From NCBI GenBank assembly GCA_963855995.1, contig OY979724.1, positions 9,066,532-9,130,531 on the forward strand: 64,000 nt of DNA, given 5' to 3'. This DNA comes from Muricea muricata. Taxonomy: Eukaryota; Cnidaria; Anthozoa; Malacalcyonacea; Plexauridae. Below the pieces are notes generated by a model that saw only the letters and a list, made by a program, of their open reading frames with translations, did not search any database and had not been told where the DNA came from. Positions 7,026 to 51,813 of this stretch are shown here, piece after piece. How positions within the stretch are numbered: the first letter of the stretch is position 1; the number at the start of each line of letters is the position of its first letter. Made by a program: the position numbers and the translations under genes.

Positions 7026-7132
7026 GTTGATTTGTCTTGTTGCTCTCATATCAGCAGTTCTTACAAGTTCTGTATTTGTCTTGGACCTTACTCAATTTGG
7101 AGATGTTGAAAAAAATCCTGGTCCAAATCCAG
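7026..7132 (+). CDS. NLR copy A exon 2, hydrophobic leader plus 2A peptide
   Basis: The exon encodes LICLVALISAVLTSSVFVL, a hydrophobic core like a signal peptide, then DLTQFGDVEKNPGP. The last nine residues match the 2A/CHYSEL consensus D-V/I-E-x-N-P-G-P, where ribosomes skip the final Gly-Pro bond (7120-7122 | 7123-7125). Known 2A-like sequences at NLR N termini, described in sea urchin, can act as alternative targeting signals. Skipping would release the receptor without the leader; non-skipping would send it to the secretory route. The donor CCAG|GTAACT leaves phase 1. Confidence 0.85.
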
Positions 7133-10030: not shown

Positions 10031-10288
10031 TTGTGTAATGTAATGCAAAAGAAACCATCTAAACCCCATGTATACGATATTTGCTCTAGCACGCGTTTAA
10101 ACTTGGCCGATGCCGAAAACAACTCAAAAGCGCCTTTCGAAAGTAAGCGCTCCCTCGAAAGTTATAAGTGTTCCTTGAGACCACTAATTACGAAAGAAAG
10201 CAGGGCGCTTACTGTCGACCCTCAATGCTATATGGTAAACAGTTTGTAATTATGTCTGATTAAGCGACAGTTGTAAAATATTTTCTAG

Positions 10289-10861
10289 ACCAAAGATACA
10301 AGTTCCATCTCCTTACTCCAGATGATTTTGAAAATCTTGCTGCCCTTGTACTGGAGCATAAATATGGAAGACCATTTCATGTGTACAGGGCAGGACGGGA
10401 TGGGGGTATTGATGGTCAAGCATCGAATATTGGTCTGTTGACAAATGAGAAGATAATCGTTCAGGTTAAACACACGAGCAACGAATCAGAAACGTTAAAA
10501 GACGGCACACGGAAAAACGTATTTGAAAAGGAAAAATCAAAGGTGGAAAAACTAGTTAAGGAGAACGGGCTGGAAACATATGTTATTGTTACAAATTATC
10601 AACTACCTAGAGGTCAGGCTCAGAAACTTGAGAAATGCTTCAGAGAAGATGCAGGTGCAAAAAACGTTGACGTTTTTGGATATGAAACACTGTGTAATTC
10701 GCTGAATGGCTCAACAATTTTGGCAGGAGAATTAATCGCTCGTTATCCAGTTATCAACCCTGCGTCCATCGTGAACACTACTATCTATAGTCAGTGCACC
10801 TTTGTAGCTACAGACGAATACGGAGCGTCACCATCTAAACGCCCAAAAGTAGACATAGAAG
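10289..10861 (+). CDS. NLR copy A exon 3, PD-(D/E)XK (Mrr/Cap4-like) nuclease domain
   Basis: A 191-codon exon with acceptor ATATTTTCTAG and donor GAAG|GTACAG, phase 1 at both ends. Residues about 10-20 (LTPDDFENLA) match the conserved N-terminal helix of Mrr-type restriction endonucleases. About residues 34-42 read AGRDGGID and about 56-63 read IIVQVKHT: together these form the D...QxK active site of Mrr-like PD-(D/E)XK enzymes. A strand YVIVTNYQL and a C-terminal GYETLC helix follow, as in nuclease domains of bacterial STAND proteins. The last residues (SPSKRPKVDIEG) look like a nuclear localisation signal. Catalytic residues are intact, so DNA cleavage is plausible but unproven. Confidence 0.8.
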
Positions 10862-11177: not shown

Positions 11178-11240
11178 GTCATGCGGAAGGTGTCGTACCT
11201 AAAAGAACAAGAATGATCAAACGTAAACCAGTCATAGGAG
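11178..11240 (+). CDS. Basic mini-exon A1 (copy A)
   Basis: 63 nt, phase 1-1. Encodes HAEGVVPKRTRMIKRKPVIG, a cluster of Lys/Arg resembling a bipartite nuclear localisation signal. Acceptor TTTACAG, donor GGAG|GTACGT. Confidence 0.65.
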
Positions 11241-11799: not shown

Positions 11800-11889
11800 A
11801 TTCTGACACCGATTCTGACACCGATTCTTCCATTACGCACGCTCAAGCGAATTACCCAGGACAAAAATCATTGTCGTCGCAAGCGAAAG
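11800..11889 (+). CDS. Acidic mini-exon B1 (copy A)
   Basis: 90 nt, phase 1-1. Encodes DSDTDSDTDSSITHAQ and then a Gln/Ser/Lys tail. Ser/Thr next to Asp fits casein kinase 2-type sites. This copy has one extra DSDT unit (12 nt) compared with the other B exons. Donor AAAG|GTAAAT. Confidence 0.6.
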
Positions 11890-12160
11890 GTAAATGCTTT
11901 GAAATATTTTGTAAATACTTTGAATACGTAAGCTCGGATCTTCATCAGTGCAAAAAATGATGCACTAAATTATATTTTAATTTGATATTGACCATGCAAA
12001 CATACAAGGAACTTATTTTTAAAATCAATTATAATTTTTGTGCACTTCACTGGATGTGGCATAATTTCTAAAGGGTAAATGTGTCTTAATTCGAGTGGAA
12101 TTAAATCATGTCAAAATTTAAGCCGCGGGAACAGTTGAGAAAAATTTATCAACTTTACAG

Positions 12161-12223
12161 GTCATGCGGAAAGTGTCGTACCTAAAAGAACAAGGATGGC
12201 AAAACGTAAACAAGTCATAGAAG
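12161..12223 (+). CDS. Basic mini-exon A2 (copy A)
   Basis: 63 nt, phase 1-1, exactly 983 bp after A1. Encodes HAESVVPKRTRMAKRKQVIE. Donor GAAG|GTACAA. Confidence 0.65.
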
Positions 12224-12794
12224 GTACAATTCTTTATCTGCAAATATTTTTAGATCAATTATGATTTTGTGTTACTTCGCTTGATATTGCATAGTTTTTG
12301 AAGGGTAAATGTCTCTTAATTCACGTGGAAATCATGTCGAAATTTAAACCGCGGGAAAAGTTAAGAAAAGAAGTACGTACATGAATAATCAAACATGAAT
12401 AGTAAATGATCGAAGCTAAATACACATAAATTACGCTTGCTCTTGTGATCAGAGCATTGCAACGGCATTGCAAAAATGGAGGTTGAATCCTGCCGAAGGA
12501 CCAGTTTTGTAGGATTCGAGTGCGAACTTGGTCTTGAACAAATTGGATTCGATGTCAAAGAACTCGCACTTGACGAATTCTACGAGTATATTACCTTTCA
12601 ACTTCGGACTTTGCATTGTCTGTACTTATAAGCTGAAGTGTATTTCTTACCCTTTCATAATTTTAGAATGACAGTGCTCATTGCAAATTTAAGTCTAGCA
12701 ATAAGTTTCAAAACTCTTTTTGGGGAGCGGTCACATTAGAAAAGTTTCTGTCATATAGTAGCTTTGAAAACTTGCATTTGTTTTTACGACACAG

Positions 12795-12872
12795 ATTCTG
12801 ACACCGATTCTTCCATTACGCACGCTCGAGCGAATTACCCAGGACAAAAATCATTGTCGTCGCAAGCGAAAG
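12795..12872 (+). CDS. Acidic mini-exon B2 (copy A)
   Basis: 78 nt, phase 1-1, beginning DSDTDSSITHARANYPG. Acceptor ACGACACAG, donor AAAG|GTAAAT. Confidence 0.6.
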
Positions 12873-13143
12873 GTAAATACTTTGAAATATTTTGTAAATA
12901 CTTTGAATACGTAAGCTCGGATCTTCATCAGTGCAAAAAATGATGCACCAAATTATTTTTTAATTTGATATTCACCATGCAAACATACAAGGAACTTATT
13001 TTTAAAATCAATTATAATTTTGTGGCACTTCACTGGATGTTTCATAATTTCTAAGGGGTAAATGTGTCTTAATTTGAGTGGAATTAAATCATGTCGAAAT
13101 TTAAGCCGCGGAAACAGTTGAGAAAAATTTATCAACTTTACAG

Positions 13144-13206
13144 GTCATGTGGAAGGTGTCGTAGCTAAAAGAACAAGGATGGCAAAACGTAAACAAGTCA
13201 TAGAAG
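13144..13206 (+). CDS. Basic mini-exon A3 (copy A)
   Basis: 63 nt, 983 bp after A2. Encodes HVEGVVAKRTRMAKRKQVIE, with the first proline of the basic motif replaced by alanine. No B-type exon follows it before the array ends. Confidence 0.65.
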
Positions 13207-15363
13207 GTACAATTCTTTATCTGCAAATATTTTTAAATCAATTATGATTTTGTGGTACTTCACTTGATGTTGCATAATTTCTGATGGTAAATGTCTCTTA
13301 ATTCACGTGGAAATCATGTCGAAATTTAAGCCGCGGGGAAAGTTAAGAAAAGAAGTACGTACATGAATAATCAAACATGAATAGTAAATAATCGAACCTA
13401 AATACACATAAATTACGCTTGCTCTTGTGGTCAGAGCATTGCAACGGCATTGCAAAAATGGAGGTTGAATCCTGCCGAAGGACCAGTGTTGTAGGATTCG
13501 AGTGCGAACTTGGTCTTGGACAAATTGGATTCGATCTCAAAGAACTCGCACTTGACGGAGTTCTACGAGAAGGGAATTCTATCTTTTTTAACTTCGGACT
13601 TTGCACTGTCTGTACTTATAAGCTGAAGTGTATTTCTTACCATTCCATAAGTTTAGAATGACAGTGCTCATTGCAAATTTAAGTCTAGCAATAAGTTTCA
13701 AAACTCTTTGGGAGCGGTCACATTTTGCTCAATTTGAAGAGAAAATGGTGATCCTCCCCGTGAACGGTATACTTGCTATACTTGTTCATTAAAAAGACGC
13801 AAATAACGTGTTGTTTTACTATTCGCTAATATTTGTTTTGATGCAACAAACTTGTGAAAGTTTACTTTGTGATGAGAAAACAAATAAAATAGAAATAACA
13901 GTAAATATGTCGACTTCTTAACTGTTGTCTGCCACGGGTTGAAGCGGAATAAATGACTTACAAGCTAGCATGTGAGAGCCTAGCTCGCCCACATAGTAGA
14001 TACAATACAGAGGTTTCACTCGGAGGTGCGAAGTGTGCCTGATTTTCGGCTTGACTTACTGAAAGAATGCCTCCAGAGCAATGTTAAGTGAATGTCAAAA
14101 GGCGATGAACGAAATCAAAGTTAATTGCCTTTAGAATGTACGCAAGCGATTTTAGCGTGGAATTTAGTCTTTAGTATAATTTACTAAGTAAATGTGTTAA
14201 GCTTAACTCGAGTGGAAATCATTTCAAAATTCAAGCCGGGGAACAGTTGGGAGAATTTTATAACTATGTACAGGTCCTCCGGCAGGTAGCGAAAATAAAA
14301 GCACAAGAATAATCAAACTTATACAGGTATAATAAGAACATAAATACACATAAATGACGCTGCTCTTGTGGTCAGAGCATTGAAACGGAATTGCAAAGGT
14401 GAAGAAGGTTCAATTCCTGCCGGAGTAAAAATAGATTCGATGTCAAAGAACTCGGAGGAATTCTACTGCCAAATCAAAAACTCTTATTTAAAATTGTCAA
14501 AAGTGTATAATTTTGCAGCAATTTTCTCTTGCTTATGCTTTTAGCGAAAATAATTCCCGTTTTTGCTGTGTGCCTGATTGTATTCTTTTTGATCATTTTA
14601 TTAGCGATTGTGATTTAAGTTAGCTCGATCCATATGATCTACTGTAATTTACATTTGAAGGGCTTGCCCTCCATTGTTTCTAAATGTAGGGTTTAGGGAC
14701 CAGTCATAAAGTAAAAGGGGGCTGGGCAGCGAAAATAGGAGTGGGTCACTATTTTTGGGCATGGTTCTCAAAGGGGAACAGAAAAGTTAGATACAATGGT
14801 TAGGTACAGGGTGGGTCATGTAAAATTATGCAGAAATTTACATACACAGTAATTTATGATGATTCACACTGACCTGTGTCTAACTTAATAATTAGACGAA
14901 TTATGTTCATTCTCATTTTTTATCGCTATGCCAAATAAGTTACAAGTTATCTAAAAGCCACACAGACCGGGCTATTAAAGGATGGGCTACAAAAAAGCAT
15001 GCACTGCTATATATTTGGTTTTCCCAGCCAACCCATCTCTAACTTTATGATCGGTCCCTTTTTTGCTTTTTTGGTTGAATACTTACTAATAGTTAATACC
15101 CGACTTGAATAATATATACTACATAATGATGGGCTTGGACTCTGATTTAGACTTGGATATAAGACTTGAACTTGAGAATGTCGGGCTTTCAAATTCAAGA
15201 GACTTGCCCTTGTAAATACCGGAATTTTTCTCAACTGTTTCTGCCTTGAATTTCGACATGTGTATGTATGATCACCACTCGAATTAAGACACATTTACCC
15301 TTTAGAAGTTTTTGTTCCAGTTTGGCTCAACCAACAATCAGGTACGAAAGCTGAGGAGGGAAT

Positions 15364-18012: not shown

Positions 18013-20324
18013 AACTCGAAAAAGTTTTGCGTGAAGAGTACAAGCGCAGAGCAGAAAATTTTCAACCGTTGCCCTGGATTGATAAAATGCAGTTCAACCT
18101 GGAAAACCTTTACACAAAACTGTCTGTTGTAAAAAGAAAAAAATCTGGTTGGAAAAAAACAAAGCAAATTGTTGAACTTCCTGACATATTCGATAAAGAT
18201 AAGCAGTCAAGATCAAACCCAAAAATTATCCTAATCGAGGGGAGTCCGGGGACAGGTAAAACAACGCTAAGCTTGAAACTTGCGTATGATTGGGCCACAG
18301 CTGAAATGCCAAACAAGTTTCCAAAAGTAGAACTAGTTCTGTTGATCAAGTGCCGGGATATGGAAGATAGCATTCAGGAATCAGCCAAGACACAGCTTTT
18401 GCCTTGGGATAACGATCAATTGCGGAATGCTTTAGACTCATTTATTCATGATCACTCGGGTAAGGTAATGTTAATCATTGATGGGGTCGATGAGATTCCA
18501 AAAAGTGCGGAAAGTCATGTTGTGAACTTGTTAAAGAGAAAAGTCTTGCAAAATTGTTATGTAGTCGTCACATCTAGGCAAGAGAAAGGAATGGAAGCGC
18601 GGAAATATTGCGATAAAACTATTAGAAATCGATGGCTTTTCAGATGAAAGTAAAGACATGTTCATAAATAGATACTTCACAAGTAACAATTATCTTGCTA
18701 AAAAACTACAGGAAAAGATACTAACTAGCACTGAGAATAATCTCCAAACGCTGGCCACAAACCCGTTGAATGCATTGCTGTTATGTGTTGTTTTTGAAGA
18801 TAATGATGGCGATCTACCTACTACGGTAACTGAGCTATATGAAAATATTATAGAGTGTATCTGGACACGCTATTGTAAAAGGAAAAGACCAGACGAAAAA
18901 GCTATCTCGTTCGAAATGGCTATGCAGACCTTGGGTAAATTGGCATACGAATGCCTTATTGAACGCGATACGTTGTATTTCAGTGAAAGCATGTTGAAAG
19001 ATGAGGACGAAAAACCGTGTACTAACATAGGTTTTTTGTATAAGGACGATATTAGTACAAAAACATTAAAGCCGCAAAATACGTACTGGTTTCTTCACAA
19101 AACGTTTCAAGAATATTTTGCAGCGTATCATTGTGTATATAGTGAAAAAGAAATCGACATGTCAAAGTTATCATATTACACGCGTACGGACGGTGCGAAA
19201 TTCATTCAAGTTTTAAAGTTCCTGTCTTCTATGTTGCAGAAAGAAAGCGCCGAGCATCACAAAAAAATTATAGCACAACTGGCATCACGCATTTCTCAAA
19301 ATGATGAGTGTGAAAGCAATGCAGATTTAGATATCATGTGCCAAGTCCTTTCTGAGAATAAGCTCGATAAAGACTTAGCTGGTGCAGTCAAAACCTTCAT
19401 TCAGAAAGACTTAGTGGTGTTCAGGATGGAACATTCTATTATGCCTCGCATTTTAAATCTTCTTGGAACAGGAGGTGAAGATAAAAAAACATTAAAATTA
19501 AGCACATTAGACATCGAATATTTTGATGATGACACGAATGGTTGAGACTGATTTGCGAAGCACTAATGAAAAACCTCGTTGTCGATGAGATGTGTTTGGG
19601 TGGTTGTAAAGTAGACGAAACCTTTCTGCAACAAATGTTGTCTGAGAACTCGACTCTACAGTCCTTAAGTCTTACATTCATCAATGATATAACTTATGGA
19701 GCAGTGACTACATTGGCGAAGGGTCTATGTAAAAACTCTACTCTAAAAGAACTAAGTCTTACAGGTATTGGTTTGGGAAAGGACGATGAGCCCTCCTCAG
19801 AATTTACAGACATGGTTGAAATGTTTCAAACTAATGTTACATTAAAAACACTCCACCTGGATTGCAACCCACTTGGTTCTGACGGAGTGACTTGGATTGC
19901 CGAGGCACTAGGATCGAACCAAGGGCTGGAGGAACTTGGTCTAATAAATACCAAATGTGACGACGAGGGAGCAGCAGCACTTGCAAAAATGTTACGCATG
20001 AATAAGACGCTCAAGCGGCTTACTCTATGTATCAAACACATCAAACTCAGATGGAGGAACAGTATTGGTGACAAGGGAGCAACTGCTCTTGCTGATGTAC
20101 TGAAGGAATACAATTCTTCATTAAGAGGACTTCATCTTTGCGGTAATACAAACATCACAAATACAGGATTAAGAAAACTTATAGAAGCAGTGCAGAAAAA
20201 CAAGACACTGACATTATATATCGACCTGTCTGAACAGATCAGCTTTTCACTAGATGACGAAACAATGGAAAGAATACAACCACCGTCAAGCTGTGTTTTT
20301 TGCAAATATTTGCGTATGAGTTAA
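18013..20324 (+). pseudogene. NACHT-LRR exon, copy A (two frameshifts)
   Basis: Acceptor ATTTCTTTCAG, phase 1. The first frame (to 18647) holds Walker A GSPGTGKTT, Walker B VMLIIDGVDEIP and sensor VVVTSRQEKG. An extra A near 18615 ends this frame; the next (to 19545) holds the winged-helix region including HKTFQEYFAAYHC. A base lost near 19535 then ends it, and LRRs continue at 19542-20324. The aligned copy B exon has neither change. The frames outside the two lesions remain clean, so inactivation is recent or the lesions are sequencing errors. Confidence 0.88.
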
Positions 20325-34351: not shown

Positions 34352-35997
34352 CTAAATGTATATCAGATTGGAAAAATGACATGATTGCAATTTGCACTCT
34401 GACTTGCAAACACTACAACAAATATGTTTGGGGGAAAGTGGTTCAAAATATTTTTTATCTGTGTCCAATTGTGCCAACAAATATTTCCTGAGACACTGGC
34501 CTTCACTCTGGCAATAATTTCGTACAGCATCTTTCATTTCGGTTTGTTCTTTGCAATGTCACGATTGTTAAAATAAAGTATGGCTGTTGCAGGTTGACCA
34601 TCCCTTCCAGCTCTGCCAGTTTCTTGGAAGTAAGACTGTATGGTATAAGGTGGGGTAATATGTGCTACACTTCGTATGTCTTTTATATCAACACCCATCC
34701 CCAAAGCCACTGTAGCAAAAACCACCCTTATTACACTATGGGTAGAGCATAGTTGTTTAAGCACTTCGTCCTTCATTTCTTTTGTTTGTGGCGAATGAAA
34801 TTGTGCAAACAAACGGTTCTCTGGTATTGCCATGGAACCAACAGGAAAATACTGTTTGCTGATGCAGTATTGATTCGAAGATCCTGTAGGCAAACCCACA
34901 CCATTTAAGGGGAATGTATACAATTGTCAAAGGGTAATTTATCTGATCATGAAGCAGTGATTTAGCCATAGGCATAAGGATGCTTATTAACGAATCCATA
35001 TCTGAACCGACTCGGAAATGTTTCTCATAAAAGATGGTTTTTCAATCCGGATTGCCAACAACATCAACACACTGTTTAAAACCCAGCAATCTCTTGATGT
35101 CTTCCCTGTCTTGTCTGGTTGCTGTAGCTGTCATGGCCAAAACTGGGATGTTTGCAAAAGTTGAACACACAACTGATAAGTTTGCATAATCAACTTGGAA
35201 ATCTTTGCCCCTGAAAGTCAACATACATATTTATACTACTTTTAAATAGAATGAATGGGTTACATAATCCATACAAACAAAACATATCTATACAAAACAA
35301 AATTTAAACAGTTATACTTACTATATATACAAGTATAGACCAATGCATATGACATGCAATAGACACATTCAGAATATTAAATAATGTAAATATTGTTTAC
35401 ATAAAATGTCACTGAAAAATGAGGGTAATATGTATATAATAAATCCTATCTTGTAATAATAGCAAGCCAAATCCTCATTTTATATAATATAGCATGTGGG
35501 CATGTTATAAAAGTGTAAAGTTTAACATACCGTCCCAAAATACAATGAGCTTCATCTACCACAATAGCACACACGTTTTCCTGGTACGGCTCCGTTTCAT
35601 TAATTTCCTTCCATATGCACAAGATATCAGGGACTCTGGATGTGCGAACAAATTATTGTACCAACTGCACACTAGTTTGAAACTGCACAGTAGTTCGTCT
35701 TCAGTGTCATCTTCATCGCGGTCTTTAGCGGTATAATTTACATCTAACACAGCTGCTTGAATTATACCAGAATTTAGCCGTGATATCTGGTTAGCTATTA
35801 CCGCATAAGGCGACACAACAATAATTATCGATGATATTTTCGTGAAAGGACACTTCACACCGTTCTTCTTTTGCGAACAAAAGAGCGGGAAGGAGACAAA
35901 AAATCAATGATTTTCCATATCCAGTCAGTAAAACGGCAAGAACCTCAAGACAAATAACCGGTTTAGGAAGGAAAAACCCGCACTTTGTATTCATCAT
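34352..35997 (-). pseudogene. RecQ-like DNA helicase, broken
   Basis: Multi-exon, minus strand. Order of motifs from the 5' side: LLTGYGKSLIF (motif I) near 35930, VVDEAHCILGR (DEAH box II) near 35545, ANIPVLAMTATATRQDRE (motif III) near 35130, then VVFATVALGMGVDIKD and YFQETGRAGRDG (motifs V and VI) near 34690-34600, and a Cys-rich tail (CCSVC) like the RecQ zinc-binding domain near 34400. An in-frame stop at about 35042, a frameshift near 34540 and another near 35700 show it is not functional here. RecQ enzymes unwind DNA; inside a TIR element it may be carried cargo. Confidence 0.8.
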
Positions 35998-37800: not shown

Positions 37801-38399
37801 CATATGGTAAGTTGGAAGTGACACCCAAACTGCATCCTCATTCCCAGGCCTTATTGGCAAAAAGGCCTGGGAATGAGAATGATCAAGCATTTTAATATTG
37901 GAAAAACAATAAAACATGAGAAACCACTCGGCCTCTTGTTTTCATCATTTTTCCTGCTTTAGAAATTTTAAAGAAAAATAAAGTCGCTTGGTAAACATCG
38001 ACTCCCCCCCCTCCGGTAAAATACTCCCACTTGTTTATGTAGTATTTTAAACACGAGCAGTAGTGATATGATAAAACGCTAGTTTGAGTGTATTAAACGG
38101 ATATTAAATGACTTCAAATATGCTGCATTGTAATGCTTATTAGGATGCAACATTATATAAAGAATATACCGATGAACGTGACAGATTATATAAAGTGTCA
38201 TCCTAGTTAGCACATTATCAGGTATAAAGCCACCTCACATGACTTATTATGGTTGGAATGATTTGCCAATGATCATATGAATTATTAAGAAATATTATGT
38301 GATATTTAAAACACGAGCAGGAGTGCTTTATAAGAGATAAAATGCAAGGCACAGCCGAGTGGTTTGTTTCTGATAAAGCACAAATTGCGAGTATTTTAA

Positions 38400-38473
38400 A
38401 TGAAAGAATTTTCAATATCGATGTTGTGTAAGTCGAGAAAATTGAGGCAAAAGTTTTATGAAAATCTATGTGT
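38400..38473 (+). CDS. NLR copy B exon 1, leader start
   Basis: Same as 6740-6813 apart from two substitutions (KSRKLRQ for KPRKWRQ). The following intron (38474-38510) has lost about 175 bp compared with copy A and is only 37 nt, below the usual animal minimum; without its removal the 2A exon is out of frame. Confidence 0.5.
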
Positions 38474-41400
38474 GTTTTGTACTATTATAGTATATAATTT
38501 TTATTTGCAGGTTGATTTGTCTTGTTGCTCTCATATCAGCAGTTCTTACAAGTTCTGTATTTGTCTTGGACCTTACTCAATTTGGAGATGTTGAAAAAAA
38601 TCCTGGTCCAAATTCAGGTAACTGATTTTCTGCTATAAGCATTCAGGTACATTCAGTAATCTATGTGAAAACTAGCCCAAAACGAAATGAATTTACTTTA
38701 TTTTACTTTTAGCTTTAATAGGATAGTATACTTTTGACTAACGTAAACATTCTATAAAAGTGTTTATCTTGGTATGGTAGAATTGTAAAAAATACATAAA
38801 TTATTTTCACATTCACGAACATTATTTAAAAATTTCGTGAAAACCCCCAAACAGTGTATACTTTGCAAACAGTGGCATGGTTAGGCAGTAAGAATTTCAA
38901 GAATTTTGCCCCACTATGCAGAAATCAAATTGTTATCATCATTAATTTCTTTAAAAATTAATTGATTTTGCCGTCAATGACTTTCAATTTTCATTATTGT
39001 ACATTTAGTAATTTATATGAAAGATGGGCCAAAACAAAAAAACCTTTGCATACTTTAAAATTTAGCTTTAGTAGAATACCCCTGTTAAATTCTTCTAAGA
39101 GAATTTGACATTTAACTAACTTGTGTAATTGGTAAACACACATAAATATTAAAACCGTTCTCAATGGCTAAAAATAGAACAAATTTCAAAGATTTTTTAT
39201 TTTTGTGTAAATCAACGAGCATCTTTATCACATATTATTCAAGAATAATTAATGAGGTTTATACCCAATTAAACTTTCCTGATTACATCACATGCATACC
39301 CCTGTAAGTCCCATGCAAATTAATGTAAATCAGTTACAAACACTCGTGAAAAATATAACCACGAATGTGCATGGTGGTCTCAAAATTTGGGGGGAGGATT
39401 ATGGGGAGGGGATTTATATTACAGGGGGACGAGCTAACATTTTGAAAAAGCTGCGCTTTATACCCAGCATTAATAAATATCAGGGACGTAGACTGAATTG
39501 AGCGTTGTTGTCATATCGGTGTCAACGACGATCTAAAAATGGCTTGAATCTCCATCTATGGAGGTGGCCACGACAATTCCATGTCGTTCTTACGTCGTCT
39601 TTGGCGTAGCATCGTTTTTTCTGAACCTTTCTATCAAGAAAAGAGCTACGCCCCTGGTAAATATAATATGTTACACTACTCTAAATAACTGTTCCTTTTA
39701 TGTATCATTTTTATTATTGTTTACAAGCAAGAAGATTTGCAAAAAACACAGATTTTAGTCATCACTGGTAACAAACATAATGTAAACGTAAAATGTTTGC
39801 ACGTAAATGTATATTTTTATCAGAACGTGGTGCTCTATTTTTGAGTCGTTGTTAAGTATTTAATGCTCATGCAGTCTAATTTTGACGTGGACATTTGCAT
39901 CAGGCTTACGAGCATCAATCCATTTTAGCGAGTTATGATTTCCACAGATATTCCATAGAGCTGGAGGGACAAAAAATAATTTGGGGGACATTCCCCCCCC
40001 CCCCCCTTGCCTCCTCGCCGCCACTGAAGCACGAGCTTTTGCAACTGATTTACATACAACTCATCTGTATAAATTCATTTCATAAGTTGTTTGCAATACT
40101 CGCAGCCGTATTGTATTGAAGACACAATCTCTCGCCGTTCAACGCGGCCGCTCGTATATATAAACATTACAAAGACTCCTACCAGGTCATAATTTCCTTC
40201 GTGTTCTCCTCGTTATTAATAAGACAGAAACTGATAAGACAGGAACTTTAAACATTATATAAATAAGAAGTTTAAGAAAATTATGAATCTGCTGAAAATC
40301 TCATTAGTCCGGCAGCTAGAGACCAATATACTTACCACATCGAGGTGCAATTCCATTTTGATATTATCTCGTTCCTTTGAGGCTAGTAAGTAAATCCCTG
40401 CATGTTGGTCACATTGAAATTTCTTGCAGCCTCTTCCCAACAAATTTTTCGTCGATATCACTATAAAACTGTATTACTGTCAAAAAAGGGGATATTTCAA
40501 GTTCATTTAAGAATAAATAACTTACAACATCAGAACGCTCATCAAAAACTACATATGAGGCATTTAAATGGCCACCCCGAATAGTCGATTTTTCAAGCGG
40601 TTTTCAAGTTAAGGATCCTTCAAACTACGAAAAAATGCTAAAAATCATGCAAATATCCTGGGCAATAGTACAAAAGTATGCTAAATTCAAAGGCTCATAA
40701 CTCACTAAGAACTGGAAAAAAGTCTCATTCTGATGATGCAAGTTTTTTTTCCAAAATTGGATTTGAAATATTATCTTTTATTACAGTAATGCAGTTTTAT
40801 TGTAATATTAACGAAAAACGTGTTCCAAAGCGGCAAACATGTAGAAATGTACTTACTAAGCTAAAACCAAAATGGAATTGCCCCTGAGTATGGTAAGGAA
40901 ACATGCATGTTTGTACCTGTAGCTGCCGGAATACATGTATAATTCTTCCTGAGGACTTGGTGGAAGACAGTATAGATTAGATATACAGCAATTTACCACA
41001 TACCGTGTGAATAACCGTGTGAGTCTCAAGAGTAAGCGGCCCTCGAAAGTAAGCGCCATTTTCGACACTTCCTGGAGAATCTTGAAAGTAAGCGCCCCCC
41101 CCCCCCCCCACTCTCTTGTGTAATGTAGTGGAAAAGAAACCATCTAAACCCTATGTATACGATATTTGCTCTAGCACGCGTTTAAACTTGGCCGATGCCG
41201 AAAACAACTCAAAAGCGCCTTTCGAAAGTAAGCGCTCCCTCGAAAGTTATAAGTGCCCCTTGAGACCACTAATTACGAAAGAAAGCAGGGCGCTTACTGT
41301 CGACCCTCAATGCTGTATGGTAAACAGTTTGTAATTATGTCTGATTGAGCGACAGTTGTGAAATATTTTCTAGATCAAAGATACAAGTTCCATCTCCTTA

Positions 41401-44400
41401 CTCCAGGTGATTTTGAAAATCTTGCCGCCATTGTACTGGAGCATAAATATAAAAGACCATTTCATGTGTATAAGGCAGGACGGGATGGGGGTATTGATGC
41501 TCAAGCATCGAATATTGGTATGTTGTCAAATGAAAAGATAATCGTTCAGGTAAAACACACCAGCAACGAATCAGAAACATTAAAAGACGGCACACGAAAA
41601 AACGTATTTGAAAAGGAAATACCCAAAGTAGAGAAACTGGTTGTGGAGAATGGGATGGAAAAATATGTTATTTTTACAAATTATCAGCTACCTGCCGGTC
41701 AAGCTCAGAAACTTGAGAAATGGTTTACAGAAGATGCAGGTGCAAAATACGTTGAGGTTTTTGGATATGAAACACTGTGCAATTTGCTGAATGGCTCACC
41801 AATTTTAGAGGCAAACTTAATGACTCGTTATCCAGTTATCAACCCTGCGTCCATCGTGAACACTATTATCTATAATCAGTGCACCTTTCCAGCTACAAAC
41901 GAATACGGAGCGTCGCCATCTAAACACCCAAAATTAGACATGGAAGGTACAGTTCTTTATCTGGAAAAGTTTTTAAAACCAAATTAGAATATAATTTTCT
42001 GGAAACACCACATAAATTTATCATCGCAAAGCTTTCGAACCGTAAGCTCGAAAATTCGAACCAAAATTATATTTTAATTTGATATTCACCATCCAAATAT
42101 ACAAGGAATTTATTTTTAAAATCAATTATAATTTTGTGGCACTTCACTGGATGTGGCATCATTTCTAAAGGGTAAATGTGTCTTAATTTGAGTGGAATTA
42201 AATCATGTCGAAATTTGAGCCGCGCGAAAATTAAAGTTAAGAAAAATTTGTCAACTTTACAGGTCATGCGGAAGGTGTCGTACCTAAAAGAACAAGAATG
42301 ATCAAACGTAAACCAGTCATAGAAGGTACATGTACATGCAGTTCTTTATCAGCTAATATTTTTTAATCAATTATGATTTAGTGGCACTTCACTGGATGTT
42401 GCATAATATCTGAAGGGAAAATGTCTCTTAATTCGCGTGGAAGTCATGTCGAAATTTAAGTAAATAAAAGTACATGAATAATCAAACATGAATAGTAAAT
42501 AATCGAACCTAAATACACATAAATTACGCTTGCTCTTGTGGTCAGAGCATTGCAACGGCATTGCAAAAATGGAGGTTGAATCCGGCCAGAGGACCAGCCT
42601 TGTAGGATTCGAGTGCGAACTTGTCTTGAACAAATTGGATTCGGTGTCAAAGAACTCCCACTTGACGGAATTCTACGAGTATTATCTTTCAACTTCGTAC
42701 TTCGCATTGTCTGTACTTATAAGCTGAAGTGTATTTCCTACCCTTTCATAATTTTAGAATGACAGTGCTCATTGCAAATTTAAGTCTAGTTCAAAACTCT
42801 TTATGGGGAGCGGTCACATTAGAAAAGTTTCTGTCATAGTAGCTTTGAAAACTTGCATTTTTTTTACGACACAGATTCTGACACCGATTCTTCCATTACG
42901 CACGCTCAAGCGAATTACCCAGGACAAAAATCATTGTCGTCGCAGGCGAAAGGTAAATACTTTGAAATATTTTGTAAATACTTTGAATACGTAAGCTCGG
43001 ATCTTCATCAGTGCAAAAAATGATGCACTAAATTATATTTTAATTTGATATTCACCATGCAAACATACAAGGAACTTATTTTTAAAATCAATTATAATTT
43101 TTGGCACTTCACTGGATGTTTCATAATTTCTAAAGGGTAAATGTGTCTTAATTCGAGTAGAATTAAATCATGTCGAAATTTAAGCCGCGGGAACAGTTGA
43201 GAAAAATTTATCAACTTTACAGGTCATGCGAAAGGTGTCGTACCTAAAAGAACAAGGATGGCAAAACGTAAACAAGTCATAGAAGGTACAATTCTTTATC
43301 TGCAAATATTTTTTAATCAATTATGATTTTGTGGTACGTCACTTGATGTTGCTTCACGTGGAAATCATGTCGAGATTTAAGCCGCGGGAAAAGTTAAGAA
43401 AAGAAGTACATGGATAATCAAACATGAATAGTGAATAATCGAACCTAAATACACATAAATTACGCTTGCTCTTGTGGTCAGAGCATTGCGCCGGCATTGC
43501 AAAAATGGAGGTTGAATTCTGCCGGAGGACCAGTGTTGTAGGATTCGAGTGCGAACTTGGTCTTGAACAAATTGGATTCGATGTCAAAGAACTCGCAATT
43601 GACGGAATTCTACGAGTATTATCTTTCAACTTCGGACTTCGCATTGTCTGTACTTATAAGCTGAAGTGTATTTCTTACCCTTTCATAATTTTAGAATGAC
43701 AGTGCTCATTGCAAATTTAGGTCTAGCAATAAGTTTCAAAACTCTTTATGTGGAGCGGTCACATTAGAAAAGTTTCTGTCATAGTGGCTTTGAAAACTTG
43801 CATTTCTTTTTACGACACAGATTCTGACACCGATTCTTCCATTACGCACGCTCAAGCGAATCATTGTCGTCGCAAGCGAAAGGTGTATACTTTGAAATAT
43901 TTTGTAAACACTTTGAATACGTAAGCTCGGATCTTCATCAGTGCAAAAAATGATGCACCAAATTATATTTTAATTTGATATTCACCATGCAAACATACAA
44001 GGAACTTAATTTGAGTGGAATTAAATCATGTCGAAATTTAAGCCGCGGGAACAGTTGAGAAAAATTTATCAACGTCTTTACAGGTCATGTGGAAGGTGTG
44101 GTAGCTAAAAGAACAAGGATGGCAAAACGTAAACAAGTCATAGAAGGTACAATTCTTTATCTGCAAATATTTTTAAATCAATTATGATTTTGTAGCACTT
44201 CACTTGATGTTGCATAATTTCTGAAGGGTAAATGTCTCTTAATTCACGTGAAAATCATGTCGAAATTTAAGCCGCGGGAAAAATTAAGAAAAGAAGTACG
44301 TACATGAATAATCAAACATGAATAGTAAATAATCGAACCTAAATACACATAAATTACGCTTGCTCTTGTGGTCAGAGCATTGCAACGGCATTGCAAAAAT

Positions 44401-47400
44401 GGAGGTTGAATCCTGCCGAAGGACCAGTGTTGTAGGATTCGAGTGCGAACTTGGTCTTGAACATATTGGATTCGATCTCATAGAACTCGCACTTGACGGA
44501 GTTCTACGAGAAGGGAATTCTATCTTTTTTAACTTCGGACTTTACACTGTCTGTACAGTTTTAAGCTGAAGTGTATTTCTTACCATTCCATAAGTTTAGA
44601 ATGACAGTGCTCATTGCAAATTTAAGTCTAACAATAAGTTTCAAAACTCTTTGGGAGCGGTCACATTTTGCTCAATTTGAAGAGAAAATGGCGATCCTCC
44701 CCGTGAACGGTATACTTGCTACTTGGTCATTAATTTCCTGAAAGACGCAAATAACGTGTTGTTTTACTATTCGCTAATATTTGTTTTGATGCAACAAACT
44801 TGTGAAAGTTTACTTTGTGATGAGAAAACAAATAAAATAGAAATAACATGAAATATGTCGACTTCTTAACTGTTGTCTGCCACGGGTTGAAGCGGAATAA
44901 ATGACTTACAAGCTAGCATGTGAGAGCCTAGCTCGCCCACATAGTAGATACGATACAGAGGTTTCACTCGGAGGTGCGAAGTGTTCCTGATTTTCGGCTT
45001 GACTTACTGAAAGAATGCCTCCAGAGGAAGGTTAAGTGGATGTCAAAAGGCGATGAAGGAATTCAAAGTACAAAACTGATGGAGGTGCACAAACATTTTG
45101 CCGATAGTAAGTTACTTTGAAATCACTTAAAACAGATATTGTAGTCGTAGATTGATTTAATTGCCTTTAGAATGTACGCAAGCGATTTTAGGGTAGAATT
45201 TTGTCTTTAGTATAATTTACTAAGTAAATGTGTTAAGCTTAACTCGAGTGGAAATCATCTGAAAATTCAAGCCGGGGAACAGTTGGGAGAATTTTATAAC
45301 TATAGAGGTCCTCCGGCGGGTAGCGAAAATAAAAGCACAAGAACAATCAAACTTATATAATAAAATCATAAATACACATAAATGACGCTGCTCTTTTGGT
45401 CAGAGCATTGAAACGGAATTGCAAAGGTAAAGAAGGTTCAATTCCTGCCGGAGTAAAAATGGATTCGATGTCAAAGAACTCGGAGGAATTCTACTGCCAA
45501 ATCAAAAACTCTTATTTGAAATTGTCAAAAGTGTATAATTTTGCAGCAATTTTCTCTTGCTTATGCTTTTAGCGAAAATAATTCCCGTTTTTGCTGTGTG
45601 CCTGATTGTATTCTTTTTGATCATTTTATTAGCGATTGTGATTTAAGTTAGCTCGATCCATATGATCCACTGTAACATACATTTGAAGGGCTTGCCCTCC
45701 ATTGTTTCTAAATGTAGGGTTTAGGGACCAGCCATAAAGTAAAAGGGGGCTGGGCAGCGAAAACAGGAGTGGGTCACTATTTTTGGGCACGGTTCTCAAA
45801 GGGGAACAGAAAAGTTAGGTACAATGGTTAGGTACAGGGTGGGTCGTGTAAAAATATGCAGAAATTTATATACAAAGTAATTTATGACGATTCACACTGA
45901 CTTGTGTCTCTCTTTGCTTTGAACAAGAGTAATAGGTCATAGGATACTAGTGACTAAACTATATATTCTTGAGTAAAATACTGCATTATAAATTAGACGT
46001 TAACTTAATAACTAGACGAATATGTTCATTCTCATTTTTTATCGCTGTGCCAAATAAGCCACAAGTAATCTAAAGGCCCACTCAGACCGGACGCGAGTTC
46101 GCAACGCGACGTGATTTTTCAATTATCAACACCAAATAAAAGCTAAAACGGGGGGAAAAATTAGCTTGTACACCAAATTGCTTAAATTGTTCAAGTCCTT
46201 GCGACGACTGGAGAAAAATAGAACAGAATTAAAGCTAAAGGACGTTTGAAATCGAAAATTCTCGTCGCGTTTTAAACCGCGTCCGGTCTGTTTTGGCCTT
46301 AACAATTTGTACTTACAATTAACATTTATGCCCACAATACACAATTCATGGTCATACTGACATAAAACAAAAAAACCCCTTGAAATTACCAGTAAGATCA
46401 GGTGTACTATATGTGGAAAATTCCAAAGAATTGTCTTTTTGTGTTTTATTTTTGCACCATTTAGCTATTGTATTAAACTATCTGGCAATAGAAAAATAGT
46501 CAAGTTGACAACTTTTGCCTGTCGAAAAGGGTGGGTCAGGCTTTTTTGCAGCGATTTAAGGGTGGGCTACAGCTTTTAATGCAACTATTAAAGGGTGGGC
46601 TACAAAAAAGCATGCACTGCTATATATTTGGTTTTCCCAGCCAATCTATCTCTAACTTTATGATCGGTCCCTTGAGGGTCTTGCTTTTTTGGCTGAATAC
46701 TTACTAATAGTAATTACCCGACTTGAATAATATATACTGCATAAGGATGGGCTTGGACTCTGATTTAGACTTGGATATAAGACTTGAACTTGAGAATGTC
46801 GGGCTTTCAAATTCAAGAGACTTGCATTTGTAAACACTGGATTTTTTCTCAACTGTTTCTGCCTTGAATTTCGACATGTGTATGATCTCCACTCGAATTA
46901 AGACACATTTACTCTTTAGAAGTTTTTGTTCCAGTTTGGCTCAAGCAACAGTGTACGAAAGCTGAGGAGGGAATTCTCTCTTTTAACTCCGGACTTCGCA
47001 CTGTTTGTACTTATATTATAAAGTGAAGTGCATTCCTTGTGCATACGGCCATAAGTAAGGAATGACAGTGTTGATTGAAAATTTAAGGTTTATGATCTGT
47101 TGGGCGAGTAATTACGTTTTGCTTATGGAGTATGGAAAATGGAAGACGCAAATAATGCGTTTTTACGATTCCTTAATGTTTGTTTTGATACAACGGACAA
47201 ACTTGTGAAAGTTGTACTTTGTGATGAAAAAACAAATAGAATAGAAAATACATAACATGAAATTATTTTTGCTCCTTTCAGGAAGGGGCCCCTCACGTTT
47301 TAACGCAGATGAAGATTTCTACGCTGCCACTGGGCCCTAGGGTTAATAACAATCCTGAAAAGTTACTAAAACTGTAGACAAATGCAATGCCAAATCGCGG

Positions 47401-50400
47401 GAAATGGCATTTCGGAGGTTCTAATTTTCAAAATTTCTTGGAGACTACACTCCTAAAAAAGCTGTAGATAGATTACGAAGTATTCGGAGTTAGACTGTAG
47501 CCTCCTCAGATTAAATTACGCTCCGCGAGTCCTGCATGAGAATGTATAAAAACGATTTTAGTGTGAAATTTTAATTTGTTATAATTTACAATTGGTTAAT
47601 TATTAGCTCCTTGTATGTTTGCATGGCGATAATAAACTTACGTGGTGTTTCCACAAAATTATATTTTAATTGGTTAATTATCATGCCCTTGCAAACAGTG
47701 AGTTGACTGCTAAATAGATAGATAAATAGATCGAAAAACTTTATTTAAACGTGTTGACCTCGTCAACCTGAGTAGATTTCCACAAGGGACGTGTACAGGT
47801 TTAAGATATTTACATGTGTAGGAAAAGTTAAAAAATATATATTCATTACTACGAAGTACCTTAAACAACTAAGGTGTTTACAGGTAATTATATTTACATA
47901 AATTTGATTTCTACTAGCAATATTTATTTAATGCTTTATAATAAAAATATTGCAGGTAAGGACAACAGAACATGATTAAGTTCTCATTAAGCCCCACTGA
48001 ATACTCTACTAAAACATCAGTTACATTGCAGGCAACATACATACAATAACTACATAAAGTGTGACAAAAGGAGGTACAATGACGACTATATAAATATTTA
48101 ATAACTAGGAAAAAACTATAACAATTCGTAACTCGCACAGACTTTAGTTTCAAAAATTTTACTGCCTCTATGTCAATTTACCTGCATTAAGCATACCAAT
48201 TCTGAGCATTTATGAACAACGATTTGTTTTGTTTGTAGTGAACGACACTTACTGCATAATGTTTTCCAAGTTCTATAGCTAGGTCTTTCTATATCAAACA
48301 CAGTGTTCAGTTTATCACTGTAGTAACATGTCTTTTGGAATCGCGTTCCATTAAAAGATGCATCATCATATATAAATTTTTCTTCATATTGTTTGTTCGT
48401 GGTTTTGGTAAAACAAAGACCACTTGAAATATTTCACTTTTGTAGGTAAAAAGGTTAGTTAGTGACGTTGGACCTAGTTTATACATCATTCTTGCATTTT
48501 CACTGGTTCCCAACACAGTTCTCCTAAGGCAATCAAATAATCTTCATCATTACTGAAATTTGTGATAATTCTACTACTTCTATTCTAAAGCTTTTGCAGT
48601 AATTTAGATCGAGTTTGACCAAAGACATCTCATACCTCATAACAATATTTTAAGTATGGGTACATCAATTCATTATACACAGGGAAGAGTTTGTTTGTAA
48701 GTAAATTCCTTTAAACGCCGAAGAGCAGAAATTCCGGCTGTTATTTTTTTACAGAAATTATCGGTGTCACTGTTCCAGAATGAGTGCTGATAAATTGTTA
48801 CTCCTAAACCTTTGCACTCTTGAATTTTCTTAATAGGTATATATTGTCAATCTTTATGCTTAATTCTGAATCTGAAATACCTTTCATCATTGGTTTTGAG
48901 CCAATTAATAAGAATTCAGTCTTTGCTACATTTAAGCTAAGTTTATTGGCCATTAGCCACTTCCAAGGTTTTCTAAATCATATATAATTTACTGCATCTT
49001 AAGTTCAGTTAAGGACTTGCCTGAGACTGTGAGAGCAATATCATCAGCGAATATGCGAGGTTTTGTTTTGCTTAGGCATTTGGGTAGATCATTAATATAA
49101 TTATAGTAGGAAAAACAGTAGTCCTAAAATTGAACTTTAAAGCGATTTTAATGTCCCAACTGTGATTTCCATCATAAAGTTTATACTATTTTCGGCTTGA
49201 TCATGATAGACTTTCCTTCAACATGTCGACCAGCATGCGCAGATCAACATGTGCGGAGACAAAAACTTCAAAAGCTCTGTGTTTATTTGCGCACTGGCTC
49301 TGTATCAATTACTGAAACTGCATAAAAATTGGGCGACCTAAGGTATAAGCGCCCTGGCAGGAAGTAATTAGCGATTACATACTATATTTTTTTCCATCGA
49401 AAGCTACTTCCGAAATAACATGTTATACTTGTTAGCAAAACTATGTAATTGCTCATTACAGTTTTTGAACACGAGTGGCACTTGCTTATAATTTTGCTTA
49501 CATCAATTTCTTTCAGAACTCGAAAAAGTTTTGTGTGAAGAGTACAAGTGCAGAGCAGGAAATTTTCAACCGTTGCCTTGGATTGACAAAATGCAGTTCA
49601 AGCTGGAAAACCTCTACACAAAACTGTCTGTTGTAAAAAGAGAAAAATCTGGCTGGATAAAAACAAAAAAAAATGTTGAACTTTCTGACATTTTCGATGA
49701 AGATGAAGAGTCAGAATCAAGTCCAAGAATTATTCTAATCGAGGGGAGTCCGGGGACGGGTAAAACAACGCTAAGCTTGAAACTTGCGTATGATTGGGCC
49801 AAAGGTAAGATGCCAAACAAGTTTCCAGAAGTAGAACTGGTTCTGTTGATCAAATGCCGGGATATGGAAGCTAGCATTCAGGAGTCAGCCAAGACGCAGC
49901 TTTTGCCTTGGGATAACGATCAGTTACGGAATGATTTAGACTCTTTTATTCACTCGGGTAAGATAATGTTAATCATTGATGGGGTCGATGAGATTCCAAA
50001 AAGTGCGGAAAGTCATGTTGTCAACTTGTTAAACAGAAAAGTTCTGCGAAATTGTTATGTGGTCGTCACATCTAGGCAAGAGAAAGGAATGGAAGTGCGG
50101 AAATATTGCAATAAACTATTAGAAATCGACGGCTATTCTGATGAAAGTAGAAACAGTTTCATTGATAAATACTTCGCAAGTAACGTTGATCTTGCTCAAA
50201 GACTGCAGGAAAAGATACGAACAAGCACTGAGGATAATCTCCAATCGCTGGCCACAAACCCGTTGAATGCATTGCTGTTGTGTGTTGTTTTTGAAGATAA
50301 TGATGGTGATCTACCTACTACAGTAACTGAGCTATATGAAAATATTATAGAGTGTATCTGGACACGCTATTGTAAAAGGAAAAGGCCGGAAGAAAAAGCT

Positions 50401-51813
50401 ATCTCGTTCGAAATAGCTATGCAGACCTTGGGTAAATTGGCATACGAATGCCTTATTGAACGCGACACGTTGTATTTCAGCGAAAGCATGTTGAAAGACG
50501 AGGACAAAAAACCGTGTACTAACATAGGTTTTTTGTATAAGGACGATATTAGTACAAGAATATCAAAGCCGCAAATTACGTACTGGTTTCTTCACAAAAC
50601 GTTTCAAGAATATTTTGCAGCGTATTATTGTGTATATAGTGAAAAAGAAATCGACATGTCAAAGTTATCTTATTACACGTCTAGTGATGGTGCGAAATTC
50701 ATTCAAGTTTTAAAGTTCCTGTCTTCTATGTTGCAGAAAGAAAGCGCCGAGCATCACAAAAAAATTATAGCACAACTGGCATCACGCATTTCTCAAAATG
50801 ATGAGTGTCAAAGCTGTGAAGGTTTAGATATCATGTGCCAAGTCCTTTCAGAGAATAAGCTCGATAAAGATTTACTTGAAGCTGTCAAAACCTTCATTCA
50901 TGAAGAGTTAGTGGTGTTCAGGGAGGGACATCCTATGATACCTCGCATTTTAAATCTTCTTGGAACAGGAGGTGAAGATAAAAAAACATTAAAATTACAC
51001 TCATTAGGATTCGAGGATTTTAATGATGACACAGAATGGTTGAGACTGATTTGCGAATCACTAATGAAAAACCTCGTTGTCGATGAGATGTATTTGAGTC
51101 GTTGTAAATTAGACGAAACTTTTCTGCAACAAATGTTGTCTGAGAACTCGACTCTACAGTCCTTACATGTTTGGTCGACCAATAATATAACTTATGGAGC
51201 AGTGAATACATTGGCGAAAGGTCTATGTAAAAACTCTACTCTAAATGAACTATATCTTACAGATATTAATTTGGGAGAGCACGATGAGCCCTCCTCAGAA
51301 TTTACAGGCATGGCTGAAATGTTTCAAACTAATGTTACGTTAAAAAGACTCGGGCTGAATCGCAACCCACTTGGTTCTGACGGAGTGACTTGGATTGCCA
51401 AGGCACTAGGATCGAACCAAGGGCTGGAGGAACTTAGTCTAAGGGATACCGAATGTGATGACGAGGGAGCAGCATCGCTTGCAAAAATGTTAAGCATGAA
51501 TAAGACGCTCGAGCGGCTTTATATATGTAACTATATATACACTCGTACATGTAACGCCTTCAACACTATTGGTGACAAGGGAGCAACTGCTCTTGCTGAT
51601 GTACTGAAGGAATACAATTCTTCATTAAGAGAACTTCATCTTTGCCGTAATACAAACATCACAAATACAGGATTAAGAAAACTTATAGAAGCAGTGCAGA
51701 AAAACAAGATACTGACATTATATATCGACCTGCCTGAACAGATCTGCTTGACATTTGATAACGAAACAATGGAAAGAATACAACCATCGTCACGCTGTCG
51801 GTCGTTAATTTAA
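38400..51813 (+). CDS. NLR copy B: 2A leader - PD-(D/E)XK nuclease - cassette exons - NACHT - LRR
   Basis: Gene-level model: 38400-38473, 38511-38617, 41374-41946, mini-exons 42263-42325, 42875-42952, 43223-43285, 43821-43882 and 44084-44146, then 49517-51813. Nuclease and NACHT-LRR exons are fully open. Three features may hinder expression: the TATA box is changed, intron 1 would be only 37 nt, and the exon at 43821 is 62 nt, which breaks frame if included. Skipping that exon restores the frame. The protein would sense through LRRs, oligomerise through NACHT and act through the nuclease, by analogy with bacterial Avs and animal NLR proteins. Function is inferred. Confidence 0.7.
38511..38617 (+). 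CDS. NLR copy B exon 2, hydrophobic leader plus 2A peptide
   Basis: 107 nt, same length and phase as in copy A. GDVEKNPGP is retained unchanged, with the predicted skip between 38605-38607 and 38608-38610; the only coding difference is after the motif (Asn-Ser for Asn-Pro). Acceptor TTATTTGCAG, donor TCAG|GTAACT. Confidence 0.85.
39481..39656. mobile_element. Short hAT-type MITE, copy B
   Basis: Counterpart of 8345-8520, same 176-bp length and ends. Confidence 0.6.
40309..40929. mobile_element. Foldback element, copy B
   Basis: Counterpart of 9153-9764, with CCGGCAGCTA at both ends in inverted orientation. Confidence 0.75.
41374..41946 (+). CDS. NLR copy B exon 3, PD-(D/E)XK (Mrr/Cap4-like) nuclease domain
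   Basis: 191 codons, phase 1-1, no stops. Conserved elements are LTPGDFENLA, AGRDGGIDAQ and IIVQVKHT, i.e. the D...QxK centre of Mrr-type nucleases, with the same spacing as copy A. YVIFTNYQLPAG and FGYETLCNLLNG match the later strand and helix. The tail reads SPSKHPKLDMEG, so one basic residue of the copy A NLS-like motif is lost. There is no ATG at the 5' edge in frame, which supports reading it as an internal exon. Typical partners of such domains in bacteria are STAND NTPases of antiphage systems. Confidence 0.82.
42263..42325 (+). CDS. Basic mini-exon A1 (copy B)
   Basis: 63 nt, phase 1-1, encoding HAEGVVPKRTRMIKRKPVIE; donor GAAG|GTACAT. Confidence 0.65.
42875..42952 (+). CDS. Acidic mini-exon B1 (copy B)
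   Basis: 78 nt, phase 1-1, starting DSDTDSSITHAQANYPG; donor AAAG|GTAAAT. Lacks the extra DSDT unit of its copy A partner. Confidence 0.6.
43223..43285 (+). CDS. Basic mini-exon A2 (copy B)
   Basis: 63 nt, phase 1-1, encoding HAKGVVPKRTRMAKRKQVIE. Confidence 0.65.
43821..43882 (+). pseudogene. Acidic mini-exon B2 (copy B), frame-breaking deletion
   Basis: A 16-bp deletion (TTACCCAGGACAAAAA of the other copies) leaves 62 nt instead of 78. Inclusion would shift the frame of the nuclease-NACHT join. The donor has also changed to GTGTAT. Confidence 0.65.
44084..44146 (+). CDS. Basic mini-exon A3 (copy B)
   Basis: 63 nt, phase 1-1, encoding HVEGVVAKRTRMAKRKQVIE when read in that frame (one G/C change in the middle codon relative to 13144-13206). 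Same Pro-to-Ala change as its partner. Confidence 0.6.
44945..45106 (+). CDS. Candidate extra exon, 54 codons (copy B only)
   Basis: A 162-nt open stretch ending at a strong donor (GATA|GTAAGT) in phase 1, with a weak possible acceptor CCACATAG in phase 1, so it would also be a symmetric 1-1 exon. The product is helical and charged, for example DFRLDLLKECLQRKVKWMSK. In copy A the same frame has a TGA and a deletion removing the donor. No domain recognised. Confidence 0.3.
45107..49516 (+). other. Long intron before NACHT exon, copy B
   Basis: Contains a tRNA-like sequence (45390), sequence similar to copy A without the foldback element of 15364, and a LINE insertion (about 47716-49133). No other exon seen. 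Confidence 0.55.
47716..49133 (-). mobile_element. 5'-truncated LINE (CR1/Jockey-type), copy B only
   Basis: On the minus strand the catalytic FADDIALTVS motif lies near 49040, followed by a decayed reverse-transcriptase C-terminal region and a long 3' part ending in a GATA-type microsatellite near 47716. Copy A has uninterrupted sequence (17610-17640). Stops are frequent. Confidence 0.8.
49517..51813 (+). CDS. NACHT-LRR exon, copy B (intact)
   Basis: 765 codons, phase-1 acceptor TTTCTTTCAG. Counting from the Met at 49531: pre-NACHT segment 1-65 (PLPWIDKMQF, LYTKLSVV, common in invertebrate NLRs), Walker A GSPGTGKTT at 72-80, Walker B IMLIIDGVDEIP at 145-156, sensor VVVTSRQEKG at 177-186, winged-helix region with HKTFQEYFAAYYC near 356-368, and about seven LRRs from 505 to 745. 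NACHT binds and hydrolyses ATP and drives oligomerisation; LRRs sense ligand. The C terminus is short and has no extra domain. Confidence 0.93.

Follow-up and report, generated by a model that had tools for sequence, protein, structure and literature searches.

Avs proteins of bacteria and NLRs of animals have a common switch, yet their outputs are thought to differ, being enzymatic destruction in the former and adaptor signalling in the latter. In Avs proteins a nuclease is followed by a STAND NTPase and then by a repeat sensor. Here we analyse a stretch of 64,000 nucleotides from the coral Muricea muricata (assembly GCA_963855995.1, contig OY979724.1, positions 9,066,532 to 9,130,531 of the forward strand; hereafter the window, C9:9066532-9130531 in our coordinates for the 453 Mb genome), which holds, in order, an exon with a hydrophobic leader and a 2A-like motif, an exon for a predicted PD-(D/E)XK nuclease, and an exon for a NACHT domain with leucine-rich repeats (LRRs).

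Among the domains that accompany NACHT in cnidarians, HEPN is an all-helical fold, unrelated to PD-(D/E)XK, that is associated with RNA. Across 15 cnidarians, 35 Pfam domains occur with NACHT (not all of them named in the parts covered), and HEPN ranks first among these partners in several species, Xenia and D. gigantea among them (PMC8260672), and HEPN is likewise described with NACHT in PMC10236652. The motif D(V/I)ExNPGP is conserved in 2A ribosome-skipping peptides, and, by analogy with sea urchin 2A-NLRs (PMC4981915), the coral leader would be expected to give two products, a released cytosolic one and an unreleased one directed to the endoplasmic reticulum (ER). The literature considered here, each source in part, includes these three papers together with PMC12314368, PMC7642931, PMC8195603, PMC12909245 and PMC11512398; in the parts covered, to which the supplementary tables of PMC8260672 and PMC10236652 do not belong, we found neither an Mrr or PD-(D/E)XK domain on an animal NLR nor a 2A motif on a cnidarian NLR. 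Three known modules would thus be joined in the coral in a combination for which we found no description, which does not establish its absence from print.

Exon architecture of the locus

From the genomic exons we predict a 2A-nuclease-NACHT-LRR receptor gene in which the nuclease is a cassette exon, a reading to which we assign a probability of roughly 0.7. Our confidence in the exon architecture is high as far as the genome goes, where the exons, their order, their phases and their conservation are shown (Table 1). The two joins are in phase 1, and across them the reading frame stays open. The nuclease exon, carried by an open reading frame (ORF) at 41349-41987, follows the acceptor TTCTAG/AT at 41374 (the slash marking the splice border) and ends before the donor G/GTACAG after 41946, while the NACHT-LRR exon, within an ORF at 49492-51813, follows the phase-1 acceptor TTTCAG/AA at 49517. 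Ending at a conserved phase-1 donor, the former needs a downstream partner exon; opening at a phase-1 acceptor, the latter needs an upstream coding exon.

In Pfam the nuclease ORF scores 27.9 bits with Mrr_cat (PF04471; cut-off 21, E 2.8e-6), and neither a search of PDB by sequence nor the NCBIfam profiles gave a match to the nuclease. A protein search with the ORF returned 59 proteins, comprising 56 relatives at 46-97% identity, all from the source 'ena', and three at 27-29%, which carry a precomputed ABC-3C domain. When the 56 closer relatives were aligned with the two copies of the window, giving 58 members, the catalytic D..QxK was retained in 53 of the 54 members that span both sites, and the D, Q and K are also retained in all 14 nuclease exons found in the genome. 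The alignment bears on the exon borders as well: the donor codon is G in 54/58 members and is followed in 53/58 by T, I or M, whose codons open with A as a G/GTA border demands, beyond which the subfamilies diverge. At the other end, only 31 of the 58 members extend to the exon start, because database ORFs often open at an internal ATG, and we read the few residues that some members have in common upstream of it as a putative branch point and pyrimidine tract. Furthermore, 29 of the 45 contigs with a nuclease ORF, contigs being told apart by their length, also carry one of the best 120 of 705 NACHT ORFs.

In the structure model the a-b-b-b-a-b core is present in the secondary structure, and the C-terminal tail is of low confidence and disordered. 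Its fold matches include Avs4, AF1548, AspBHI, FokI and MspJI, the Avs4 match (8dgf, residues 3-187) being an N-terminal nuclease of the same fold. Judged from sequence and fold together, the 191-codon exon encodes a PD-(D/E)XK nuclease with a catalytic site that is predicted to be intact.

On the NACHT-LRR ORF, Pfam detects NACHT (PF05729; 70.7 bits, cut-off 26.7) and LRR_6 (26.2 bits, cut-off 23.4), with nSTAND3 remaining under its cut-off (24.1 bits against 27.2). The Walker A/B pattern is intact in all 17 open genomic copies of this exon, the model reaches a predicted local distance difference test (pLDDT) score of 83.5, and the closest PDB folds are NOD2, NLRP3 and NLRC4 (E 1e-31 to 1e-27). 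By these sequence and model matches, the exon is an animal NLR core.

The 2A exon, which translates as LICLVALISAVLTSSVFVLDLTQFGDVEKNPGPNS, is bordered by the acceptor TTGCAG and the donor GTAACT, and is entered in phase 2 and left in phase 1. Its leader core has a hydropathy of 2.4 over 15 residues, and its start codon was not located. Each of the two copies in the window has one instance of the 2A pattern in its DNA, whereas 100 shuffles of the window gave 0.00 on average. Genome-wide, GDVEKNPGP is retained in 18/18 2A exons, and among the 17 array copies the 27 bases that encode it contain one variable site, which is synonymous.

These results confirm the observation, and support in part the interpretation, of a first-pass annotation of the same DNA, which had proposed an Mrr-like nuclease exon (the structure prediction of its 191 residues now recovers the PD-(D/E)XK core) spliced through compatible phase-1 sites to a NACHT-LRR exon. 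Of that architecture the exons, order and phases stand, and what has to be added is the 2A leader exon, which was overlooked and which is in phase with the nuclease exon. Moreover, the locus had been taken to begin at 38400, where no exon can be supported; the 2A exon is the first that can.

Table 1 Coordinates of the predicted gene and of its second copy in the window, counted from the first nucleotide
Feature	Position	Strand	Remarks
2A leader exon	38511..38617	+	107 bases; hydrophobic leader and 2A-like motif, LICLVALISAVLTSSVFVLDLTQFGDVEKNPG^PNS
DVEKNPGP core of 2A motif	38587..38609	+	predicted skip between G and P
Predicted intron, 2A exon to nuclease exon	38618..41373	+	
Nuclease exon	41374..41946	+	191 codons; symmetric phase 1-1; FENL / GRDGGID / IVQVKH catalytic pattern
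Predicted intron, nuclease exon to NACHT-LRR exon	41947..49516	+	about 7.6 kb
NACHT-LRR exon	49517..51813	+	includes stop codon; Walker A GSPGTGKT, Walker B IMLIIDGVDE
Copy 1 of 2A exon	7026..7132	+	
Copy 1 of nuclease exon	10289..10861	+	open
Copy 1 of NACHT-LRR exon	18013..20324	+	broken by two frameshifts

Repeated units on C9

The exons of the window belong to an array of 17 units that spans 0.93 Mb of C9 on one strand, each unit having the order 2A exon, zero to two nuclease exons, NACHT-LRR exon. The match counts behind it are lower bounds, the NACHT search having scored 59 of 122 candidates. The nuclease exon has at least 14 matches, all at C9 8.39-9.28 Mb on one strand and none with a stop; the NACHT-LRR exon has at least 17 full or nearly full open matches in the array (68-100% identical), in addition to broken pieces there; and the 2A exon has at least 18, of which 17 lie in the array and one on C5. 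Outside the array, the 60 listed NACHT matches include one broken relative on C2 (two pieces, at 67 and 73%) together with distant NACHT proteins of 24-34% identity. The count of units leaves out four degenerate NACHT sites of the array (8905979-8906866, 9291651, 9296698-9297440 and 9328845-9329829), the tail piece at 8910506 of an open copy (L026), the C5 2A exon, the broken C2 fragment and the remote NACHT matches elsewhere; window copy 1, though in pieces, entered it a single time. One extra open NACHT copy (L027), which stands alone with neither a 2A exon nor the usual acceptor, was kept in the count.

Nuclease exons are absent from five units, single in ten and double in two (C9:8461250/8466298 and 9135464/9139509). 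Each of the 14 has a 2A exon before it and a NACHT exon after it in its unit. All 14 also start after TAG/A, and 13 end at GGTACA, the exception (L014) being the second nuclease exon of the latter double unit, whose donor and usual end have been lost. The ratio of nonsynonymous to synonymous substitution (dN/dS) is below 1 in all 77 nuclease pairs. A different effector exon was sought in the nuclease-less units, and none was recognised in three of their five intervals, those that were read.

The stray 2A exon on C5 (L072, C5:17201335-17201441) lies far from the array and is 88% identical. The open stretch about 1 kb downstream of it has no Pfam match, and another gene family may also make use of this leader.

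Within the window, two units form a tandem duplication whose copies are offset by about 31.4 kb. Between these copies the 2A exon differs at 1/107 bases, the nuclease exon at 59/573 and the NACHT-LRR exon, over its aligned bases, at 207/2,290, and other parts of the introns differ much as the exons do (34/370 after the 2A exon, 44/370 before the NACHT exon). The flanks of the nuclease exon differ less, at 5/189 bases before and 2/98 after its ORF. That this exon is more divergent than its adjoining flanks (41185-42085 and 10100-11000) suggests exchange among units, and it may have been exchanged with other copies. In both copies the intron after the nuclease exon contains tandem repeats of about 1 kb (10979-13724 and 42064-44667).

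Several further features of the window and genome were observed. ORFs at 445-6251 on the minus strand resemble, by eye and with no family search made, a Ty3/gypsy-type long terminal repeat retroelement; they separate the pieces 4-320 and 6442 onwards, which match 37804-38105 and 38101 onwards, and the element therefore seems to have been inserted after the tandem duplication. Another minus-strand ORF, at 34534-34926, resembles by eye a C-terminal fragment of a RecQ-type helicase, no search having been made. Rfam gave no match on the window. Elsewhere, a second COX1 match with one internal stop (C1:38414782-38416095) is probably a nuclear copy of mitochondrial DNA; on the mitochondrial contig cox1 adjoins cox2-atp8-atp6 (opposite strand), with nad1 following behind cox1 after a gap of about 970 bases, all of these but cox1 having been named by eye; this is the gene order of octocorals, so the host is probably one.

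Proposed mechanism and competing explanations

Under the predicted architecture, an upstream exon with the start codon would be followed by the 2A leader exon, the nuclease exon and the NACHT-LRR exon; joined transcripts, skipping, oligomerisation and cutting are all proposed by analogy with known relatives. Ribosomes at ...DVEKNPG/P would free the leader part of the time, yielding a cytosolic product of 959 residues that starts at PNSDQRYK and comprises the PD-(D/E)XK nuclease, a disordered linker, NACHT and LRR, and an NLS-like (nuclear localisation signal) KRxK in the linker, where present, would send this product to the nucleus. By analogy with Avs proteins and NLRs, the LRR would detect a ligand, NACHT would bind nucleotide and oligomerise, and the gathered nuclease domains would cut the nucleic acid of an invader or of the cell. 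Where skipping fails, the hydrophobic leader could direct the whole protein to the ER, by analogy with the 2A-NLRs of sea urchins (PMC4981915). As the nuclease exon is symmetric in phase (1-1), units or splice forms that are devoid of it would stay in frame as 2A-NACHT-LRR. A broader reading, in which an early-branching animal has an array of self-contained nuclease-NLRs that unite sensing, switching and the destruction of nucleic acid in one polypeptide, as in Avs, whose 2A leader fixes the compartment of each molecule (cytosol or nucleus versus ER) while it is being translated, and whose effector is a symmetric cassette exon, switched in or out and exchanged among neighbouring units, is tentative, and we rate it slightly below even odds.

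A number of observations weigh against the predicted gene or parts of it, and some of them reappear in the alternatives below. The likeness of the nuclease to Avs4 is not exclusive, as Avs4, AF1548 and AspBHI lie within 1 Z unit of one another, the Avs4 match has a high root-mean-square deviation (6.0 A), and Foldseek places MspJI first and Avs4 fifth. Variation among the 17 array 2A exons, at 11 of 107 sites, is split 3/3/5 over codon positions 1/2/3 and therefore has no clear coding bias. A first exon with a start codon at 38342-38427 was rejected, its ATG being missing in other copies and indels breaking the frame, and for a split start codon (AT/G, giving MLICLV...) no shared donor was found up to 1.5 kb upstream of the 18 2A copies. 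The NLS-like motif, found in 10/14 genomic copies, is missing in window copy 2 (KHPK). Lastly, five of the 17 units have no detected nuclease exon, and in three of these five the 2A-NACHT interval was read and holds none; the nuclease is therefore not essential to the receptor.

This last point is also a basis of the alternative that survives best, in which 2A-NACHT-LRR would be the chief product, with the nuclease exon as an optional, mostly skipped cassette and the nuclease form as a rare isoform. The symmetric phases of the exon would permit this, yet it is kept in 12/17 units and doubled in two, with dN/dS below 1 throughout. We regard this explanation as unlikely; it is partly compatible with the predicted gene, and the odds we attach to the various readings do not sum to one.

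Somewhat less probable, in our view, is that the nuclease-like fold acts as a nucleic-acid or ligand-binding sensor or an integrated decoy, with the receptor signalling in the usual way. Some PD-(D/E)XK folds have been put to non-catalytic use, and the NACHT-LRR core is of the ordinary animal type. Under such a role, however, one would have to account for the retention of D, Q and K, described above, across a family in which identity among relatives drops to 46%.

A third alternative, which we consider improbable, is that two interleaved families were duplicated together, namely a 2A-nuclease gene with an unseen 3' exon of its own and a separate NACHT-LRR gene downstream. The starts of the nuclease and NACHT exons do lie 4.4 to 20.5 kb apart, and co-evolution of the two gave a weak signal only, with a weak correlation of their distances over 11 units (Mantel r 0.25, p 0.06). 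Nor does the repeated order decide the matter, as it follows from tandem duplication alone: in 200,000 shuffles of the 49 features the number of units rose no higher than 16, against the 17 observed, but this test addresses order and not fusion, because duplicating a segment of separate genes also repeats order. What speaks against separate families is that the nuclease exon terminates in its conserved donor and not in a stop, that the NACHT ORFs require coding sequence upstream of their acceptor, and that five units run from 2A exon to NACHT with no nuclease exon found between.

Finally, a decaying pseudogene array, as might be suggested by the frameshifts of window copy 1 and the Ty3/gypsy-like insertion upstream of it, the four further degenerate NACHT places and the lost donor of L014, is very improbable given an open NACHT-LRR exon in 16/17 units, 14/14 nuclease exons free of stops and the 2A motif in 18/18 copies.

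Comparison with bacterial and animal systems

In PADLOC, the best match of the nuclease exon is the candidate family PDC-S73 (3.9e-15), which on the NACHT exon matches the P-loop only (positions 190-217, E 0.01); of the whole PDC-S73 model, nuclease plus nSTAND3, the coral gene thus matches the nuclease part alone. A search at the size of the fused protein gave two weak matches (E 0.24 and 0.48; P0001 and P0002), both of them Mrr_cat-nSTAND3 proteins and PADLOC PDC-S73 members, and GTDB gave one confirmed locus among 254 candidate stretches, in Shouchella lonarensis (L001), with Mrr_cat plus nSTAND3. These PDC-S73-type proteins are 27-33% identical to the coral exon in the nuclease and have the same order of nuclease then STAND, whereas they carry nSTAND3 in place of NACHT and have no LRR among their Pfam matches. 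Six prokaryotic-type relatives of the nuclease were examined in all, three being STAND fusions and three having the ABC-3C domain. A phage origin of the nuclease was rejected, with no match in phages, and the 41 plasmid records that match it are all below 60% identity, the ten listed being at 27-28%.

The likeness to Avs, which the first-pass annotation had drawn from domain order, is retained in part. Avs4 and other bacterial Avs anti-phage STAND NTPases have an N-terminal PD-(D/E)XK nuclease of the same fold as the coral exon; the coral gene departs from them in having an animal-type NACHT as its NTPase and an LRR as its sensor, with a NOD2/NLRP3-like fold. In PADLOC the NACHT-LRR exon had no match named Avs at E up to 1, the naming of Avs models in that library being unchecked.

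Among animal NLRs, cnidarian HEPN-NACHT proteins also have a nuclease-class N-terminal domain on an NLR (PMC8260672, PMC10236652), the effector being HEPN where the coral exon encodes a predicted PD-(D/E)XK domain. Sea urchin SpNLR2A has a 2A-like motif directly after a hydrophobic leader, on the N-terminal side of the NLR, a placement that the coral motif would share in the predicted gene, but sea urchin NLRs are described as DEATH-NACHT-LRR (PMC4981915), whereas in the coral a nuclease follows the 2A motif, which lies on an exon of its own. If the predicted gene is correct, its leader would mean that ribosome skipping may decide where an NLR is placed in a further animal lineage, the second after the sea urchins, and the 17 units, with absent, single and double nuclease exons within 0.93 Mb, would offer a natural set of receptors with and without the effector. 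Were an intact Mrr-type nuclease to occupy the effector position of an animal NLR, that receptor would form a direct bridge between Avs proteins and NLRs.
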